64,000 bases of DNA, from positions 1,156,501 to 1,220,500 of the forward strand of contig NZ_CP034791.1 in the NCBI RefSeq assembly GCF_003999255.1, read 5' to 3'. Origin of the DNA: Caldicellulosiruptor changbaiensis. Its GTDB lineage: Bacteria; Bacillota; Thermoanaerobacteria; Caldicellulosiruptorales; Caldicellulosiruptoraceae. The position numbers and the translations under genes were made by a program. The stretch's first letter is position 1, and the number at the start of each line of letters is the position of its first letter. The notes below the pieces were generated by a model. It was not told the DNA's origin and did no database searches. It saw only the letters and a list, made by a program, of their open reading frames with translations. This document shows, in pieces, positions 4,364 through 18,063 of this stretch.

Positions 4364-4408
4364 TGGAGCTCCATGGGGGATACGAACCCCCGACCAGTCA
4401 ATTACGAA
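4364..4408. repeat. Left attachment site, tRNA-Thr 3' half copy
   Basis: 45 bases matching 17989-18033 with two substitutions, at 4382 (A for T, in the T-loop) and 4400 (A for G, in the anticodon stem). Beyond 4408 a shrunken resemblance to the rest of the tRNA (AATCG, CTGAGATA) is visible, but the fold is lost. This is not a functional tRNA. Confidence 0.9.
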
Positions 4409-4560: not shown

Positions 4561-5052
4561 TTAATTGTGTTTGTAGTCTTTTATTCCTAATTTGTCTTTT
4601 AGTGCCTCTTGGAGTACTTGCGAAAAGTTTATGTTATGTTTTTCAGCTAACATATTCAACCACTGGGGAATTGTCAAAGTCTTTTTTACTGCCTTGTTGT
4701 CCATCTCATGTCGTACAAGAGGCATCCATACTTCAATCAACATTGGTATTTGATTTTGTTCAAGTTTTAAGTTGTTTACAGGCGTTGGCTCTGGTATTTG
4801 TTCATTGTCTTTTTCCATGCTCCAAAGATACAGCCCTAATACTTCTTTTGCATTTTTTACTGCTTCATCCAAAGTATCAGCACATGAAATACAGCCGGGC
4901 AGGTCGGGAAATTCAATTGTTATGCCGTCCTCATCAAAAATAAAAATAGCAGGGAATATATATATTTTTTTCTCATTCTTTTCTAATTCCTCAATGTATT
5001 CTATTTTAGATACCAACTTGTATAAAAATATTTTCACTCCTACTTCTGCCAA
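4561..5052 (-). CDS. hicB: HicB-family antitoxin without adjacent HicA
   Basis: Central HicB fold (YIFPAIFIFDEDG, FPDLPGCIS) followed by a C-terminal ribbon-helix-helix/HicB region (KKTLTIPQWLNMLAEK, INFSQVLQEALKDKLGI). It is a clear paralogue of the HicB at 7554. The farthest upstream start is TTG at 5052, overlapping the end of the HigA-ImmA gene by 13 bases. No good ribosome-binding site marks it, so the true start could lie up to ~30 codons downstream, closer to the IYIFPAIF segment. No HicA is next to it. It is the third gene of the higB-higA/ImmA transcript and could bind DNA or a HicA encoded elsewhere. Confidence 0.85.
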   Translation of the reverse strand: MAEVGVKIFLYKLVSKIEYIEELEKNEKKIYIFPAIFIFDEDGITIEFPDLPGCISCADTLDEAVKNAKEVLGLYLWSMEKDNEQIPEPTPVNNLKLEQNQIPMLIEVWMPLVRHEMDNKAVKKTLTIPQWLNMLAEKHNINFSQVLQEALKDKLGIKDYKHN

Positions 5053-6125
5053 GTAACTTTTGGTCTCAATTCAGTAAAATCCCAATGGTTAATCTTTTTA
5101 TCATGCATTAATCTTCCTACTACAATGCATGGATGAATGTTGAGAGAGTTGGCAAAAGAAATTATTTTGTCTTTTGTGAAAGACTTATTTTCAGTAATAA
5201 ACTTTTTATAATCTTTATATGGTATCAATATATTTGCAGCAAAATTATCTGCTTCTTCTTCCAGTTCGCATTTTGAAATTCCATCATCACCTTCAATAAA
5301 AACCTCTTTTCTACCATGTTTTAATATATGTCCTAATTCGTGAAAAAATGAAAACCAATAAACGTCAGCAAACTTGTATCTATAACTTAAAGCTAACAAC
5401 ACCTTATCTTTTTTTAGCCACTTTGTAGCACCGTTTACATAAGTGCCTTTTAAATGTGGAAGTGTTACTAAAGCAATTCCACATTCTGAACAAAGATTTA
5501 TCAGCTTTGGGTAAATTTCATCCCAAGAATGTTTTGTGAGTTCTCTAATAACAGGTATGATTTGATAAATTTTTTCTTTATTAAAAGGTTTTGTTTCTAT
5601 CTTGTGAGCTTCTATTTCGGCTTTCCTAATCCATGCTGCTAAAGCATAACATGAAGTTTTTTCGTTATTAGCTTTTCGAAAACAAACTTCCAAAGTTTGA
5701 GGAATAAAATTTAAAGATGATACTCCAAAGAAATTTCTAAGATTCTTTATTTTTTCTTCTTTGTTCTTTGTCTGTGGTACCCATTTGTATTTTGACATTT
5801 CATTGTATGGGATTTGGTTTAATATTTTTTCTTCATCCTTTAATTTTTGTTTTTCAGCTATTCTTGCTTTAGCAAGTTGATAATTAGCTTCTAAGTTCAT
5901 CCAAAATTCAGCAGAAGCACCTATTACATTTTCTAACTTAAGAGCTGTTTCATAAGTAATTGGAGCAATACCGTTAATTATTTCACTTACCGTTTTTTCT
6001 GAAAGTCCCATCCTTTGAGCAAACTCAGCCTGTGTCATACCTAAGTACTCAAGATTTTCTTTTATAGTCTCACCAGGTGGAATAGCAATCAATTCTTCTT
6101 CTTTTCTATCTTTTTTCCTTCCCAT
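5040..6125 (-). CDS. higA: HigA-type antitoxin fused to ImmA/IrrE metalloprotease domain
   Basis: 361 residues. Residues ~15-80 are a HigA-type XRE helix-turn-helix (PPGETIKENLEYLGMTQAEF, with LSEKTVSEIINGIAPIT). The C-terminal half is an ImmA/IrrE domain with the zinc-protease motif HELGH at residues 262-266 and downstream acidic residues (LEEEADNFA). HigA proteins repress their operon and neutralise HigB; the fused protease domain might control antitoxin or repressor turnover, which is inference. The gene overlaps the toxin gene by 20 bases, toxin first, which is the usual higBA order. All catalytic-looking residues are intact, unlike most genes of the element. Confidence 0.9.
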   Translation of the reverse strand: MGRKKDRKEEELIAIPPGETIKENLEYLGMTQAEFAQRMGLSEKTVSEIINGIAPITYETALKLENVIGASAEFWMNLEANYQLAKARIAEKQKLKDEEKILNQIPYNEMSKYKWVPQTKNKEEKIKNLRNFFGVSSLNFIPQTLEVCFRKANNEKTSCYALAAWIRKAEIEAHKIETKPFNKEKIYQIIPVIRELTKHSWDEIYPKLINLCSECGIALVTLPHLKGTYVNGATKWLKKDKVLLALSYRYKFADVYWFSFFHELGHILKHGRKEVFIEGDDGISKCELEEEADNFAANILIPYKDYKKFITENKSFTKDKIISFANSLNIHPCIVVGRLMHDKKINHWDFTELRPKVTWQK

Positions 6126-6453
6126 GATAATCTATCACCTCTTCAATTTGAATTATTACTATTTTCGATAAATCTATTTCATTATGTATCTGATTTTCGG
6201 AAGTTGTAACTGGTATAAAAATTAACCTAAATGGATGAACTAAGTACACAGCATATTGTCCTTTTCGGGAACCTTCTAACTTATGAAAACCTGTAGCTGG
6301 CAAACGGGATATGTCATATAGGGATTTGGCAGCCTTTAACTCATTTAATCTTTGAAAAAGCTTTTTAGCTATGTCTTGCCCAAACTCTTTTTGTGCCAGC
6401 TTAAAATTTTCACATATCTTTTTCAGCTTTTTGGTTTTATACCTTACTTCCAT
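6106..6453 (-). CDS. higB: HigB-type RelE/ParE-family toxin
   Basis: 115 residues from ATG 6453, preceded by AGGAGGAC; a start nine codons earlier lacks a ribosome-binding site. The sequence has the HigB pattern: KKLKKICENFKLAQKEFG at the N-terminus, then LNELKAAKSLYDISRLP and a basic core (GSRKGQYAVYLVHPFRLIF). Family members are ribosome-dependent mRNA interferases. It is immediately followed by the HigA-ImmA gene, forming a type II toxin-antitoxin operon. Confidence 0.88.
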   Translation of the reverse strand: MEVRYKTKKLKKICENFKLAQKEFGQDIAKKLFQRLNELKAAKSLYDISRLPATGFHKLEGSRKGQYAVYLVHPFRLIFIPVTTSENQIHNEIDLSKIVIIQIEEVIDYHGKEKR

Positions 6454-6480
6454 TATACTATATGTCCTCCTGAAAGTCAA

Positions 6481-7984: not shown

Positions 7985-8905
7985 TTACAAAGTTAATTTT
8001 TTGACCGCTCTTTTTATTTGTTCTCTGTACTTGCTGCCATACTTTTGTACCATTGAAAGATGGAAATAACACCAAACAAAATAGTCCTGTAGCATTCTCA
8101 CGTGATTTATTGACAGCTTGTCAATATGTCGTTCAATAAACTCTTCCACTTCCCACTTGGCAGCAAGAAGCTTCATTCTGTCCTGTTCACCTTGCTGCTT
8201 TAAAACCCTCAGCTTGTCCAATTGTGGTATTGAAGACAAAACCTCAAGCTGCTTTCCCTTCTCCTCTCTCGTCAACACTGTGTTTTCTACTGGGGATGAG
8301 AAGTAACCACTGCCTGCTACCACATGCACCGCTGGGCAGGATATAAACACTGTCAAGTCGTCAAGGTCTGCCTCTAATTGGTCTTGTTTCATCGCCCGCA
8401 ATAGCTTCTTCCTTGCCGATTTAAACAGCTTGTCATCTGCTATTTTGCCTGTGTGGATGTACCTTAAAACTTGTTCTCTCTCATCGTCGGTTAGCTCTGC
8501 TAAATACTTTTACAACCTTGCTACAATATCCCGCCTTATTACCTCGTTTTCCACAGAAAAGCCACTGTCAATCACATCGCCAACTGTTATTTCCTCTTCC
8601 TCATCCTTGGTTAGTGGACTATCCAGTGACACCAAAGTGAGCCTGTACTTTGGCAAGCTTTTCCTTATTTTGCTTTCAATCACCTTGCAAGCATAGGTAG
8701 AAAAACTGCCTTTGGCAGGGTCATAGTTCTTTGCTGTAACAACAAGACCAAAGTAGCCTTCACTGACAAGGTCATCAACTTCAGAGCAATAGCCTTTTGG
8801 ACAAGGCATAAACTTGTTTGCTACATGATACACAAGCTTTAAATTGTCGGCAATTAAAAACTGCCTCTGGACATCTGCATTTTGCGTTAAAGCAGTTTGC
8901 TGCAT
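7985..8905 (-). pseudogene. Phage-type sigma-70-like factor with in-frame stop
   Basis: The frame starts at ATG 8905 behind AAAGGAGTG and runs 306 codons, but TAA at 8510-8512 interrupts it after residue 131. Before the stop is a sigma-70 region 2 (KLVYHVANKF, VDDLVSEGYFGLVVTAKNYD, FSTYACKVIESKIRK); after it, in the same frame, ELTDDEREQVLRYI resembles the start of region 4, followed by a helical tail I do not recognise. The second part has an internal ATG at 8401 but no ribosome-binding site. It probably once directed transcription of the element; the first half alone is unlikely to work. It lies just downstream of the terminase-like pseudogene. Confidence 0.75.
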
Positions 8906-9875: not shown

Positions 9876-10210
9876 CTACCGCCTGCCTTTGATGATTTTC
9901 AAATGCTTTGGTACTTCTCTCACTCTTGTTGTCTTGCCTGTTTCTTCATCAAATAAAAACTTTTTGCCCTTGCTGTCTTGGTATAACCTATAAGTTTTAA
10001 TTCCAAGCTCTTTTGCAATCTCCTCGGCTAATGTTGTTTTGCCTTCATATCTTCTTAAGTTGCTGATTGTGACCATGTATCTTACAAGAAATTCTTCTAT
10101 TTCGTCGTTGACATAATTCCATAAAAATCAATAACCTTGTCACCAATAAGACTGTTCATATCAACTTTGCTGAGCATTGCTTTTGTTGTGTTAGTAATCT
10201 TTAATGCCAT
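9876..10210 (-). pseudogene. Unknown element protein, frameshifted
   Basis: ATG 10210 (start MALKITNTTKAMLSKVD) overlaps the previous gene by 20 bases. Near 10130 the frame breaks; one shift joins it to NYVNDEIEEFLVRYMVTISN and the basic C-terminus ending KHLKIIKGRR. The downstream part has an in-frame ATG at 10076 but no ribosome-binding site. The reconstructed protein has about 111 residues. The segment YEGKTTLAEEIAKELGIKTY resembles a phage P-loop-like or DNA-binding region, but no family can be named. Confidence 0.5.
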
Positions 10211-10505
10211 ATTTATGACCTTCATAAAACTTTTTGATAGGGAAAGTATTCACAAACTGTTTTGGTGTCATATTAGCAAAAATTTGAAGCACCAGCCAAT
10301 GGAGAAATAAGCTGTCTTTTACCTCTTCTCGTGTAACAAGTTCAGGTTCTGTTTTTGTGGTTGTATACTTCACAAGGTAAAAAGCTAACTGCGGCATTAG
10401 TTCTCTTGCGTCTTCTTCATCTAACAAACCTAACTGATGACCAAATACAAAACTTGAAGTCAATCTTTTGGCAGCTTTGAGATACAAAACAGGATTAAAT
10501 TTCAT
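10191..10505 (-). CDS. Unknown phage-type protein
   Basis: 104 residues, ATG 10505 behind AAGGAGG. Soluble and helical (ELMPQLAFYLVKYTTTKTEP, SLFLHWLVLQIFANMTPKQF). No family recognised and no lesion visible. It belongs to the leftward run of small genes between the replication pseudogene and the terminator at 9426-9459. Confidence 0.65.
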   Translation of the reverse strand: MKFNPVLYLKAAKRLTSSFVFGHQLGLLDEEDARELMPQLAFYLVKYTTTKTEPELVTREEVKDSLFLHWLVLQIFANMTPKQFVNTFPIKKFYEGHKYGIKDY

Positions 10506-10567: not shown

Positions 10568-10888
10568 TTAACCTGTCATTTCATTCTGCTCAAAAGCTTT
10601 GTCATAAGTTTTGCACCATCTTTTAGCCCTTTGTCTGTATCCGTGCAGCTCATAGATTGCACACAGGTAACTCTGGAGTTCTTCAATCTCTGTGTAAATT
10701 TTCAATGCCTCATCGCTCAATAACTCTTTTAATTTAGCTTCCAGAATATCAATTTTTCCTGTAGTTTTCATGTACTTTTGGTCTTTCAAGATTTCATTTG
10801 ACCTGCAGCTTACCAGTTCAACTGTAAACTGAGAAAATAGCTTTTCAAACACATCATTTGCTGTCTGAATTTTTTCAAGCGCTATCAT
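10568..10888 (-). CDS. Unknown phage-type protein
   Basis: 106 residues. ATG 10888 overlaps the stop of the preceding gene (ATGA) and is preceded by GAGGTAG; a TTG two codons earlier is also possible. Helical, charged product with one Trp-rich basic patch (RAKRWCKTYDKAF) near the C-terminus. No family recognised. Translational coupling with the ribbon-helix-helix-like gene upstream is evident. Confidence 0.6.
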   Translation of the reverse strand: MIALEKIQTANDVFEKLFSQFTVELVSCRSNEILKDQKYMKTTGKIDILEAKLKELLSDEALKIYTEIEELQSYLCAIYELHGYRQRAKRWCKTYDKAFEQNEMTG

Positions 10889-11373
10889 TGACAAACTACC
10901 TCACTTTCTGTTTTAGGTTTGAAAAGAAGCTTCTCTGGTATTACAAATCCTTTGCTTTGCCAAAACTTGATTTCCTCATCCAAATGTGGATACCTGAGTT
11001 CTACTAAATACTCAATTCCTTCATTGTCCAAGCTCACCTTTAGGTATTCAAGTAGTATAAGCACTCTTAAAGTTTGTGCACATTCTCGCATATCACCAAC
11101 TTTAAAGTGCTGCTCAAAAATTGACGTGAACAGTTCTGTGCCTTGGTCTAAAAATGAAATCAAAAGTTTTCTGTAATCCAAATCAATTGAAGAGACAATT
11201 GTAAACCAGTGAGCTGTTTGCAACTCTCTTTTTGTGGCTCTTCTTATTGTGTCGATTAAAATTGCACTTGCATGGGTTATAATCTCATCAAGATTTCTGC
11301 TGCCATCTGCAAGCTTACAAAGCTTGTCATAAACAGGTTTTGGTAGATTCACTGTTACTTTTGGCATTTTCAT
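10885..11373 (-). CDS. Unknown protein with ribbon-helix-helix-like N-terminus
   Basis: 162 residues from ATG 11373 behind GGGAGTTGA. The first ~45 residues (KVTVNLPKPVYDKLCKLADG) have the beta strand-helix pattern of ribbon-helix-helix DNA-binding proteins; the rest is helical and ends EKLLFKPKTESEVVCQ. A role in copy control, partition or regulation is possible but only inferred from this pattern. Confidence 0.6.
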   Translation of the reverse strand: MKMPKVTVNLPKPVYDKLCKLADGSRNLDEIITHASAILIDTIRRATKRELQTAHWFTIVSSIDLDYRKLLISFLDQGTELFTSIFEQHFKVGDMRECAQTLRVLILLEYLKVSLDNEGIEYLVELRYPHLDEEIKFWQSKGFVIPEKLLFKPKTESEVVCQ

Positions 11374-11712: not shown

Positions 11713-12273
11713 CTAAATATAGCTTTTAACCTCAATAGCAACATCGGTTTGAGGAAAACAATTAAGGCATACAAAAGCTCCTATAGCGTCAAAATAAGCA
11801 AGTTCATTGCAACCGTCCATCTCACATCTGAAATCTATAAAAGCGTCTTTTGCTTTGCTAATATCAAGTGGATTTTTGCTTTTTATAACAAAGCACTTTT
11901 TACTGTCTTCTGCTTTTTGCTTAGAAAATACACATTGCAAAACTTTTTTATCGGTTTTCTGTTCTCGTTCTTGCTTTTGAAGGTTGTCTGATAGGCTGTA
12001 AAACTCTATAGAGATATTCTCTTTCAAGGTCTTGATAGCTTTTTTCAGCTTTGATTCATCCAAAAATATAAGTGCTGCTTTAACCTCTTTGAGCTGTTGC
12101 TTACTTGCGTATTTCTTATATTCCTTTATTTCATCTTCAACTTTTCTGCACAGCTCAATATATTGAGCTTTTAAATCTGGGTCACTTTCTATAAGGCTTT
12201 TCATTTGTTCAAGAGCTTTTTCGTCTCCAAATCGGTAGTATCTCTGCTTTAAGCTTGCAAACATTGATACCAC
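11713..12273 (-). CDS. Unknown protein with C-terminal zinc-ribbon-like cysteines
   Basis: 186 residues, ATG 12273 behind AAAGGAGTGG. The N-terminal two thirds are helical and highly charged, probably coiled coil. The last ~45 residues contain CEMDGC and CLNC around a small beta-rich segment, a plausible zinc ribbon. No family recognised. It is the first gene of the leftward small-gene run and lies directly beside the repeat-rich region at 12404-12731, so a role in replication or its control is possible but unproven. Confidence 0.65.
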   Translation of the reverse strand: MVSMFASLKQRYYRFGDEKALEQMKSLIESDPDLKAQYIELCRKVEDEIKEYKKYASKQQLKEVKAALIFLDESKLKKAIKTLKENISIEFYSLSDNLQKQEREQKTDKKVLQCVFSKQKAEDSKKCFVIKSKNPLDISKAKDAFIDFRCEMDGCNELAYFDAIGAFVCLNCFPQTDVAIEVKSYI

Positions 12274-12403
12274 TCCTTTGAAATGATTTGTTATATTTTT
12301 ACATCCAATTTTTAAAAAGTCTTTTTATTTTTGTTCCCAGCTATTTTGGGAATATTGTAAAATAAACACATCCAAATTTGATTTTTAAAGTGGCTTGTAA
12401 AGA

Positions 12404-12731
12404 CCTAATCAGTAGCACTGGTTAGGATTTTAAATCTTAAAAAGCTTGCAAATTGCTATGTGCACATTTTTGCGTTCGCCTAACCAGTAATTTTAAAATA
12501 CATATATACTTTTTTTTATAATTTGGATGTAATTTTATTCCAATGGTAATTACTGTTTATTAACCTCCTAATTTTATTTTTTATATGACTAATTATTTTT
12601 ACTGGTTAGACTGGTTAGGTAGGGTATATAACCTATTGGAATATCTATTTTTGAGTCCCTAACCAGTTCCTAACCGATCTAACCAGTAAGTTATTGTAAT
12701 ACTTGAAAATACTAAAATCTTTACTGGTTAG
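12404..12731. repeat. Iteron-like array, nine copies of ACTGGTTAG
   Basis: Copies of ACTGGTTAG or its complement CTAACCAGT lie at 12404 (CCTAATCAGT, degenerate), 12417, 12479, 12601, 12610 (tandem with the previous copy), 12658, 12669 (CCTAACCGAT, degenerate), 12679 and 12723. The first two form an inverted pair three bases apart. The array fills most of the gene-free 12274-12757 stretch, which is strongly AT-rich and ends with the palindrome TACCCTAATAGGGTA at 12741-12755. It lies between the replication pseudogene and the leftward small genes, so an iteron-type replication origin is the favoured reading. A cooperative repressor operator is the alternative. Confidence 0.75.
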
Positions 12732-12757: not shown

Positions 12758-14538
<1,781 letters not shown>

Positions 14539-14649
14539 CAATATTTTTCTCCTTCTTTTCAAAAACACCAATCAGCCACCTTGCCGATTCCCAAACAAGG
14601 CAGCGAACAAAGAGAAGAAAGGGGATAGCTTGAACATGGTAGGTATCTA

Positions 14650-14868
14650 TTATTTATTCCAGCAAGCCTGCTCATTGACCCATTTAATGAAAGCTTCTTT
14701 TGGTATGAGGATTCTTCGCTGCCCTGCTAAGATTTTTGGGAAGTCTCTCCTGTGGATTAAGGTAAGCGTTACGTTGTATGATATCCCCAGCATTTGGGCA
14801 GCTTCCTTGATGCTAATTGTCAATTTCTCTATTTTGTCTCTTTGAGGTTGAGGATTGTAGATTTCCAT
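14650..14868 (-). CDS. Excisionase-family helix-turn-helix protein
   Basis: 72 residues, ATG 14868 behind AAGGAGG; the longer frame upstream lacks a ribosome-binding site. The sequence is a typical HTH_17/excisionase domain (TISIKEAAQMLGISYNVTLT, then a basic wing and ILIPKEAFIKWV). Such proteins direct excision or bind early control regions of integrative elements. The gene overlaps the 3' end of the broken XRE gene upstream and precedes the replication pseudogene. Confidence 0.8.
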   Translation of the reverse strand: MEIYNPQPQRDKIEKLTISIKEAAQMLGISYNVTLTLIHRRDFPKILAGQRRILIPKEAFIKWVNEQACWNK

Positions 14869-15106
14869 CAGAATTGCCTCCTTTATCTTCAAATTTAATA
14901 CTAAAAATTTCCTCAAAATCTACTTTTAACGCTTCAGCTATAGCTTTAGCAGTTTTAGGTGATGGATTTTAAATACCTTTTTCAATAAGTGCTATAGTGG
15001 AATAGTGAACGCCAGCCAATTTTGCTAAGTCTCTTATTGTGTATCCTTGTTTTATTCTAAGTGTTCTTATTTTAAAACCTTTTACAGAAATATAAGAAAT
15101 TTTCAT
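14813..15106 (-). pseudogene. XRE-family regulator with in-frame stop
   Basis: ATG 15106 follows GGAGAGTGACG. The frame encodes a Cro/CI-type HTH (IRTLRIKQGYTIRDLAKLAG, VHYSTIALIEKG) and is cut by TAA at 14969-14971, exactly where the family continues as NPSPKTAKAIAEALKVDFEE in the same frame. One base change explains the stop. It diverges from the intact repressor at 15279 across a shared operator region, the classic arrangement of an early-gene regulator opposite a lysogeny repressor. Confidence 0.72.
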
Positions 15107-15246: not shown

Positions 15247-15278
15247 TAAATTAGGATATACTGAAAAGGAAGATGATA

Positions 15279-16115
15279 ATGTTTGGTAAAAGATTAAAAG
15301 AATTGCGTGAGGAAAAGGGATTAACCCAAGCTGAATTAGCAAAAGAATTAGGAATATCTGTCCAAAATCTTTCGTATTATGAAAATGGAAGAGAACCCAA
15401 ATATGAATTACTTATAAAAATTGCAGACTATTTTGGTGTCACAGTTGATTATCTTATTGGTAGAAGTGAGTATAGGACAGTAGAAGAACAATTTTCCAAG
15501 AGAACAAAGTTTGAGAGATTTGTAGTTGAAAATCTACCTTATGTAATTTCGGATGAAAAAATTGAAAAAAAAGTTGCAACATTTATTGAACAGGTATTAG
15601 AACCTTTGTTAGTTAATACTGCCATAGTTTACTTCTTTGCTCATGAACCAGAAAGAAATAGAGAATTTATTACTGATTTAATTTATCATTTGTTAAGCCA
15701 TATAAACTTATTCTTTGAAAAGTTTAGGGCATTTTTAGAAGATAGAGAGAATAGACTCATTGCTTTAGATGATTTGTATCCAAATGATAAAGTTGAGAAA
15801 TTGTTTTCAGATTTTATTGATGATCAAATAACTTATGAGGAATTTAAGAAGGAAGATGAGAAAATAAAGAGCAAGTATGATTATTTTGAGAGAGTATTAA
15901 ATGAAATGGGTGAAATTTACGAAAATATTAGAGATAATTTTTCTGTGCTTTTTGATTTTTTAGAGGATATGTCAACAAGTTATTCAGAAGCTCTTTATTT
16001 AGCATTGTTTAAGACAGAAGGGAATCTTGTAGAAAAGGTTAAAGAATATAAGAAAAAAGAGAAAGGTATTGATTATTCCAAGGAAGGTGAATCTGATGGA
16101 AGCCAGAATACCTAA
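15279..16115 (+). CDS. XRE-family repressor with long helical C-terminal domain
   Basis: 278 residues; start at ATG 15279 preferred because AAAAGGAAG lies at the right distance, ATG 15273 being too close. Residues ~1-65 form a Cro/CI HTH (FGKRLKELREEKGLTQAELA, ISVQNLSYYENGREPKY). The rest is an acidic helical domain of unknown family, not a LexA-type peptidase and not ImmA. It is the likely master repressor of the element and is intact. Its 3' end overlaps the nuclease gene by 20 bases, so the two are co-transcribed. Confidence 0.85.
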   Translation: MFGKRLKELREEKGLTQAELAKELGISVQNLSYYENGREPKYELLIKIADYFGVTVDYLIGRSEYRTVEEQFSKRTKFERFVVENLPYVISDEKIEKKVATFIEQVLEPLLVNTAIVYFFAHEPERNREFITDLIYHLLSHINLFFEKFRAFLEDRENRLIALDDLYPNDKVEKLFSDFIDDQITYEEFKKEDEKIKSKYDYFERVLNEMGEIYENIRDNFSVLFDFLEDMSTSYSEALYLALFKTEGNLVEKVKEYKKKEKGIDYSKEGESDGSQNT

Positions 16116-16678: not shown

Positions 16679-17879
16679 ATGCCTGCAAAGACTAAAAAGA
16701 AAGGAAACAATGAAGGCAGCATATACAGAAGGAAAGACGGGCTTTGGTGTGATCAAATTACCATAGGAAGAGATGAAAACGACAGACAAAAGCGGCAGTA
16801 TTTCTATGGCAAGACAAGACAAGAAGTTGCCGACAAGATAGCAAAGGCATTAAACGACTTGGCCAATGGAGTATATGTTGACCCTGCAAGAATGCTTGTC
16901 AAAGATTGGCTCAGCACATGGCTTTGGGAATATAAAAAACAGACGTTGCGACCTTCAACGTTCAAAGATTATTTGTGCTATATAGAAAAACATATAAATC
17001 CAGCCATTGGTCATTATAAGCTAAAAGATTTGAGACCTGAACATCTTCAAGCTTTGTATAATGCCAAATATCAGGAAGGTTTGAGTATAAGTACGATTAA
17101 GCAGATTCATGTTGTTTTGTATTCAGCTTTAGACCAAGCTTTGAAAAATGGACTTGTCAACAGAAATGTTTCAGAAGCAACCACTTTGCCAAAAGGCAAG
17201 CCAAAAAGGGAAATAAGAATACTGAGTTTAGAAGAACAAAAAAGATTTATTGCAGCTTTGGAGGGGAAAAACTAAAAACTGCATTTTTTGTTGAGTTAGC
17301 AAGTAGACTTAGAATAGGTGAACTTTTGGCTTTGCGCTGGAAAGATGTAAATTTTAAGGATGGATACATTGAAGTTAGAAGGTCATTGCAGCGTGTAAAG
17401 ATTTTTGATGGTAGTAGCTCTAAAAAGACTGCACTTGCTTTTCAAGAGCTAAAAACAGAGGCTGGTAAAAGAATAGTGCCTTTACCACCTGTAATAATTG
17501 AAGAGTTAAAGCAGCACAGGAAAAACAGTTAGAAGAAAAATTAAAAGCTGGAATGCTTTATGAAGATAATGATTAGTATTTACAACAGAGTGTGGCACTC
17601 AAGTTGACATAGGGAAATTTGAAAGGCTTTTTTACAGAATAAGAGAAAAAGCAGCTATTTACAAAAGAGTAAATTTTCATATACCAAGACACACATATGC
17701 AACAAGGCTTTTAGAAGCGAACGAACATCCAAAAGTTGTTCAAGAGCTTTTAGGACACAAAGATATTTCTACAAACCCTCAATATTTATTCTCATGTTAT
17801 GCCTGAAATAAAGAAAGCTGCTGCAATGAAATTAAACAGCTTATTTGAAGATATAAAAACAAAGGGTAACCACTCCTAA
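16679..17879 (+). pseudogene. Tyrosine integrase (Tn916/phage type), at least four frameshifts
   Basis: ATG 16679 follows GAGGTG. The N-terminal arm-binding domain (NEGSIYRRKDGLW), SAM-like domain (VKDWLSTWLWEYKKQTLRPS) and start of the catalytic domain are in one frame to 17275. Shifts near 17272, 17525, 17571 and 17774 break the rest. All catalytic elements remain visible in pieces: the Arg of LRIGELLALRW, HIPRHTYATR, LGHKDIS and the Tyr of IYSHVMPE. Its 3' end lies 110 bases from the intact tRNA, as expected for an integrase beside its att site. Inactivation appears recent because no catalytic residue is lost. Confidence 0.85.
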
Positions 17880-17988: not shown

Positions 17989-18033
17989 TGGAGCTCCATG
18001 GGGGATTCGAACCCCCGACCAGTCGATTACGAA
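17989..18033. repeat. Right attachment site within tRNA-Thr
   Basis: The 3' half of the intact tRNA gene, from the encoded CCA end through the T-arm to the anticodon loop; it matches 4364-4408 at 43 of 45 positions. The crossover segment for integration should lie inside it. Confidence 0.9.
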
Positions 18034-18063
18034 TCGACTGCTCTACCACTGAGCTAATGGAGC
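17989..18063 (-). tRNA. tRNA-Thr (anticodon CGT)
   Basis: 75 bases including encoded CCA. Acceptor stem GCTCCAT pairs with ATGGAGC; the D-arm reads GCTCAGTGGTAGAGC. Anticodon stem GTCGA/TCGAC encloses the loop TTCGTAA, with CGT at 18029-18031 (plus-strand ACG). The T-arm GGGGGTTCGAATCCCCC is perfect. It decodes ACG. The gene serves as the integration site of the element yet remains intact because the integrated copy restores the 3' half. Confidence 0.96.

Follow-up and report, generated by a model that had tools for sequence, protein, structure and literature searches.

The window, i.e. the whole stretch of 64,000 nucleotides of Caldicellulosiruptor changbaiensis DNA analyzed here, contains a 13.7-kb island that lies between 45-bp att repeats and is inserted in a tRNA-Thr gene. 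The integrase and the XRE repressor are encoded on one strand, and the Xis-like protein, the primase-helicase, a repeat array and small genes are found on the other:

4364–4408: 45-bp attachment repeat at the island's far end, with 2 mismatches
12405–12731, no strand: putative iteron replication origin (ori) of the island, made up of two groups of ACTGGTTAG copies (nine in all) on either side of an AT-rich core
12758–14571, minus strand: pseudogene of a CHC2-DUF927-HTH_56 primase/initiator helicase (from domain matches and comparison with the intact protein of the congener G002)
12758–13171, minus strand: surviving HTH_56 winged-helix domain, still an open frame, predicted iteron reader
14650–14916, minus strand: HTH_17 small protein (Xis-like), which heads the leftward replication operon
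15273–16115, plus strand: XRE-type repressor, divergent from the replication genes
16679–17773, plus strand: tyrosine integrase, frame-broken
17989–18033: attachment repeat inside tRNA-Thr (tRNA-Thr at 17989–18063, minus strand)

The divergent integrase and repressor, the size class of about 15 kb, the specific att site and the lack of structural genes are those of a PICI, and the gene order and other traits of this type were also compared in the sister island of another congener, G003. A terminase small subunit is suggested by a weak match of a G003 protein to phrog_1206 (E 3e-6), of whose gene the window has a fragment only. No DNA similarity to phage records was found. Elsewhere in the island, a gene of the sigma-70 region 2 type (7985–8905, minus strand) is intact in G003 (314 aa) and apparently split in frame here. 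Two adjacent ORFs at 9876–10505 (minus strand) correspond to two halves of phrog_6329, and this island gene looks frame-broken. A toxin-antitoxin-like pair (5040–6480, minus strand; HigB/HigA type by resemblance) is located near the island's far end and is about 88% identical to the G003 pair. The G003 island has similar Uma2-family genes near both of its ends (L007, 4180–4770 and 16859–17440), one within and one just beyond the att repeat.

The repeat array starts 27 bp past the stop of the minus-strand helicase gene. It consists of seven exact and two degenerate copies of the 9-mer ACTGGTTAG in both orientations, which bears out the count given in the first-pass annotation:

12405–12413, minus strand: iteron 1, ACTGATTAG, one mismatch to ACTGGTTAG
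12417–12425, plus strand: iteron 2, exact ACTGGTTAG
12480–12488, minus strand: iteron 3, exact ACTGGTTAG, core border
12489–12600: AT-rich core between the two iteron sets, 112 bp, 85% AT
12601–12609, plus strand: iteron 4, exact ACTGGTTAG, core border
12610–12618, plus strand: iteron 5, exact ACTGGTTAG, in tandem with iteron 4
12659–12667, minus strand: iteron 6, exact ACTGGTTAG
12670–12678, minus strand: iteron 7, ATCGGTTAG, two mismatches to ACTGGTTAG
12679–12687, minus strand: iteron 8, exact ACTGGTTAG
12723–12731, plus strand: iteron 9, exact ACTGGTTAG

The tandem pair (12601/12610) and the inverted pair (12405/12417) had both been recognized earlier, and the latter is also kept in G002, G003 and a third congener, G007. 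We regard the degenerate copy at 12670 as real because G002 has, by synteny, an iteron at the equivalent place. A shifted 9-mer with one mismatch inside the core (about 12549–12557) was discounted in its favor, as it has no counterpart in G002. Exact ACTGGTTAG occurs ten times in the whole genome (2,905,633 bp), with seven of these copies in the array and the other three all single. As only about 3e-4 exact copies are expected by chance in 330 bp, a chance origin of the array is excluded. The array is also the strongest short-repeat cluster of the window (9 copies, compared with 6 for the runner-up), and the motif does not recur at similar density elsewhere in the genome; such recurrence would have refuted the reading of the first-pass annotation by its own criterion. 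The repeat region had been described as very AT-rich; this is true of the core, but the repeat-bearing arms are only 65% AT. The core, which is the presumed melting site, holds a AATTACCATTGGAA-type block that is kept in four islands of the genus. A further motif, ACATCCAA/TTGGATGT, has three copies in the vicinity of iterons 1–3 and the core (12300–12544), with CCCTCAAA/TTTGAGGG at some of the equivalent places in G002.

An Rfam search gave no match, and the sole terminator-like hairpin in the scan is the inverted iteron pair itself (12404–12426). The combination of iterons with an AT-rich region could also describe a plasmid origin of the DnaA or RepA type. However, there is no DnaA-box-like site (TTWTNCACA, at most one mismatch) inside the array region of L004, and the initiator is a DUF927 helicase rather than a RepA/pi-type protein, and we consider such an origin barely credible.

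The replication gene next to the array had been called dead, and this is indeed the case. Alignment to its intact counterpart in G002 shows that the helicase of the window has lost residues from about 384 to 632, which make up most of the AAA+/ATPase part of DUF927, and it carries several frameshifts besides this deletion. We found no second protein with DUF927 or HTH_56 in this genome. Since the helicase is left without its ATPase core and the genome without another DUF927 protein, the window array is an orphaned and probably inactive origin; presumably it is unable to replicate autonomously, the helicase being broken.

In a survey of 12 genomes of the genus, an HTH_56 helicase was found in three besides the window genome (G002, G003 and G007). 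All three helicases are open frames of 848–863 aa, and each is followed by an array with the same place, copy order and orientation as the window array. The words, however, differ: ACTGGTTAC in G002, AGTGGTTAC in G003 and AGGTGTTAC in G007. Every copy in an array is altered together, and parts of the intervening core are conserved. The first-pass annotation had proposed a search for ACTGGTTAG clusters near intact DUF927/CHC2 genes. This search fails, as exact ACTGGTTAG is absent beside the intact homologues and, among 248 loci retrieved, no other contains it exactly more than once. What might first be taken for a refutation is due to the fact that each relative has its own word in the same layout. 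Its proposal that an iteron array beside a replication gene marks an origin is, on the other hand, upheld by the conservation of this layout next to intact homologues.

The persistence of the array beside a dead gene had been called notable, and a role as a decoy or an operator had been suggested; we found nothing in support of one. Selection might have kept the orphaned array because it titrates the initiators of related islands or phages that enter the cell, be it as a decoy or as an incompatibility locus, and indeed seven of the nine copies are intact and the HTH_56 remnant is still an open frame. But such a locus would affect only an invader with the same word, and this word is not found in more than one exact copy at any of the other loci mentioned above. 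Furthermore, persistence needs no special function: intact sister islands exist and all but two of the nine copies are perfect, as is expected with recent decay. We therefore find selection for a decoy improbable.

The G003 and G007 islands, in which most flanking genes are 90–100% identical, are informative as to which protein might read the word. The identity of their helicases drops from 87% at the N-terminus to 61% in HTH_56, and the sole other gene that is as diverged is that of the XRE repressor (62%). The homologues of the two small proteins put forward earlier as binders, 11713–12273 and 10885–11373, are 91% and 93% identical, respectively. They are unlikely word readers because they are near-unchanged between G003 and G007 while the word changes. 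These comparisons bear on the possibility that the array is solely a multi-site operator, bound by either small protein or by the XRE repressor to control the downstream operon. Its intergenic position in front of the next gene (11713–12273, minus strand) and the divergence of the repressor would fit such a function, whereas the near-constancy of the small proteins and a promoter scan that gave promoter-like matches only at the level of shuffled sequences argue against it. Taken with the survey and the covariation described below, we hold an operator-only function to be very improbable.

A double function, in which the array is the origin and the helicase also regulates the downstream genes via the iterons, deserves more consideration. 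Plasmid iteron origins are often autoregulatory, and the array is situated between the helicase and the next gene, but the helicase gene's own promoter does not adjoin the array. Such regulation in addition to replication is possible, albeit doubtful.

The association of arrays with this helicase family extends far beyond the genus. Our collection of DUF927 helicases, which drew on bacterial genomes, viral contigs, phage records, plasmids and one SaPI-like element, comprised 55 distinct genes having enough downstream DNA; family-level genome searches for further DUF927 loci added none. An array was scored if at least 7 copies of one 9-mer, with one mismatch allowed and on both strands, were present within 400 bp after the stop. 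By this measure, 45 of the 55 helicases are directly followed by an array of a private 9-mer, whereas only 3 of 400 control windows, placed behind other open frames in these loci, reach the threshold; shuffled sequences reach at most 7 copies. Most of the ten helicases below the threshold show weaker arrays of the same type, and L190 and L166 are array-free. At one locus scored as positive by the script, L147, the repeats seem to be a tandem repeat of another kind, and we did not use this locus for the covariation analysis. Arrays follow DUF927 helicases also in phages and plasmids whose other neighbors differ, which is a further argument against an operator for the island's own neighboring genes. 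One example is a circular Geobacillus stearothermophilus plasmid (pSJEF4-2-2, CP128451), where the DUF927 gene is followed by a 14-copy TTGTGACA array at 5266–5690. This plasmid gives indirect support to autonomous replication of such helicase-array segments. Large near-identical duplications in its 13-kb record suggest that the true replicon may have roughly 6.5 kb, the record being either its dimer or an artefact of assembly.

Most of the arrays have a common layout. Oriented by the iteron on the core's far side, the usual order is (-) + + (+), - -, core, + (+), - +. The iterons that border the core point away from it in 40 of 43 arrays, and in 42 of 43 the AT content of the core (median 94 bp) exceeds that of the arms. 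The SaPI-like element PT1028 has the same layout after its rep gene, and SaPI/PICI origins are defined by two iteron sets flanking an AT-rich region (PMC6092414). In a profile search, the helicase matched SaPIbov1 Rep (8tch; E 3.5e-40) and also SCCmec Cch (5dgk). The island resembles the SaPI/PICI systems (SaPIbov1 Rep-ori, PT1028) in having a homologous DUF927-type initiator upstream, an ori immediately 3' of its gene, two sets of iterons flanking an AT-rich core, and an integrase and repressor divergent from the xis-primase/rep-ori genes. It differs from them in that its family fuses a CHC2 (DnaG-type) primase to the helicase, in its words, in its thermophile host and in that the window copy is dead. 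Although the motif had been said to match no familiar iteron family, the array is, by its layout and its adjoining initiator gene, a SaPI/PICI-type origin of a self-loading initiator helicase.

Other relatives share parts of this arrangement. SCCmec Cch and Cch2 (5dgk; PMC7581432) are self-loading helicases with a C-terminal DNA-binding domain. Cch has the DUF927 and HTH_56 folds in common with the window family (HTH_56 is the 'Cch helix turn helix domain' of Pfam), but we found no multi-iteron two-set array described for it in the accessible literature. Cch2 uses its C-terminal domain to bind direct repeats that directly follow its gene, as proposed here, but it belongs to another helicase family and has three 5-nt iterons (PMC7581432). 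The phages THSA-485A (Thermoanaerobacterium) and FP_Epona (Faecalibacterium) encode a CHC2-DUF927-HTH_56 protein followed by an array of the same layout (TTCGGTTACC and AGGTGAAACA, respectively). Unlike the window island, they are full phages with other words, and the array carries no origin annotation in their records.

The iteron words fit one scaffold, A-S-n-n-G-n-n-A-S. We compared every alignment column of the C-terminal domain with every word position by normalised mutual information. One column stands out for word position 9 (0.81; the next is 0.45) and one for position 4 (0.69; the next is 0.47); P values for these pairings are not independent because they came from an exploratory scan of all columns and the sequences are related. 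At position 9, Trp/Tyr occurs with G in 14 cases and Lys/Arg with C in 22, i.e. in 36 of 36 without exceptions; the Tyr/G pair of L011 is backed by 6 of 11 copies. The surviving HTH_56 domain of the window has the wing Trp that matches G9 of ACTGGTTAG. On a helicase tree made without the HTH domain, the wing residue and position 9 each switch six times, all six jointly. The window and G002 provide a further matched switch (Trp/G vs Lys/C), which is outside this tree because the window helicase lacks its body. The pairings at position 4 are Arg-G (10), Glu-C (5), Gln-A (2), Val-T (5) and Lys-T (2), with Thr (with T or A) and His (with G or T) as exceptions. An apparent Arg-T pair in L149 proved false, the word having been shifted by one position in the automatic alignment. 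Such pairings are chemically familiar. This covariation of the words with residues of the helicase also weighs against an array that serves an operator only.

An AlphaFold2 model of the HTH_56 domain alone (28 sequences, with one annotated-phage-record row left out) has a pLDDT of around 90 over the fold. In this model, the associated residues 111, 115 and 117 (numbering of the G002 fragment L009:10856-11275) are predicted to lie on the two strands of the wing and off the helix. Residue 117, a Lys in G002, corresponds to the Trp of the window and to word position 9, and residue 111, an Arg, to position 4. Among known structures, the model is most similar to SCCmec Cch (Z 11.8), SaPIbov1 Rep (11.1) and TcpK (11.1). 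TcpK of pCW3 binds tandem 9-nt oriT boxes, GGAACTTTA, with its beta-wing in the major groove, and its usual helix makes only a backbone contact (PMC6137059, 5vfx). The winged-helix arrangement is the same in the two proteins (Z about 11), and reading by the wing agrees with the covariation observed here. TcpK differs in being a conjugation factor at an origin of transfer, a stand-alone dimer with no helicase. The sequence GGAACT is common to the TcpK box and the SaPI-like iteron TCGGGAACT.

Closely related elements differ in the same parts. The phages L156 and L170 have helicase bodies that are 99.4% identical and HTH domains that are 91% identical, and their words differ at position 6. Their DNA identity is 76–85% only in a stretch that begins about 300 bp ahead of the helicase stop and ends 450 bp past it, and 91–99% beyond, whereas control pairs with the same word show no identity dip over the origin. 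The corresponding values for bodies and HTH domains are 94.8% and 66% in L187/L188, and 98.8% and 85% in L073/L074. Near-identical phages thus differ mainly in HTH_56 plus the origin, as though a cassette had been swapped. Two prophages of a single genome (L010 and L011 of G014), with helicase bodies 88% identical, have the words AGAAGTAACC and AGGAGTAA, as would be expected if private words allow coexistence.

On the best explanation of these findings, a phage-satellite-like (PICI/SaPI-like) island integrated in a tRNA gene has its replication origin in this array, the word is read by the wing of the HTH_56 helicase, and the copy in the window is orphaned. We consider this very likely. In the intact relatives, we infer, the self-loading DUF927 helicase encoded just upstream would bind the iterons via its C-terminal HTH_56 winged helix, and helicase rings would be loaded at each of the two iteron sets, thus flanking the AT-rich core, which would then melt. 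The CHC2 primase fused to the helicase would supply the primers for copying the excised circle in both directions. A few residues of the beta-wing would largely set the choice of 9-mer, and origin and HTH domain would evolve or be exchanged together, so that each element has a private origin, with incompatibility expected between elements that share a word. It seems fairly likely that the wing follows a code (Arg-G, Gln-A, Glu-C and Val-T at position 4; Lys/Arg-C and aromatic-G at position 9), that an exchangeable HTH-origin cassette sets replicon identity, and that the origin word of an uncharacterised phage or island can consequently be predicted from its protein.

In summary, the array represents a new host lineage for a known kind of origin, and, as far as the accessible papers go, it is new that the layout is so widespread, that each element has a private word and that wing residues follow a pattern; no description of the residue-base pattern was found in the open-licence papers searched. 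An origin can now be assigned to a primase-helicase family that is common to phages, satellites, SCC-type cassettes and small plasmids, and the two-set iteron layout, which has been called unique to PICIs, is found in complete phages too. If the wing code is true, the specificity of an initiator for its origin would be predictable from sequence, and the code would explain how the swap of one short cassette could be enough to separate the replication machineries of near-identical phages.
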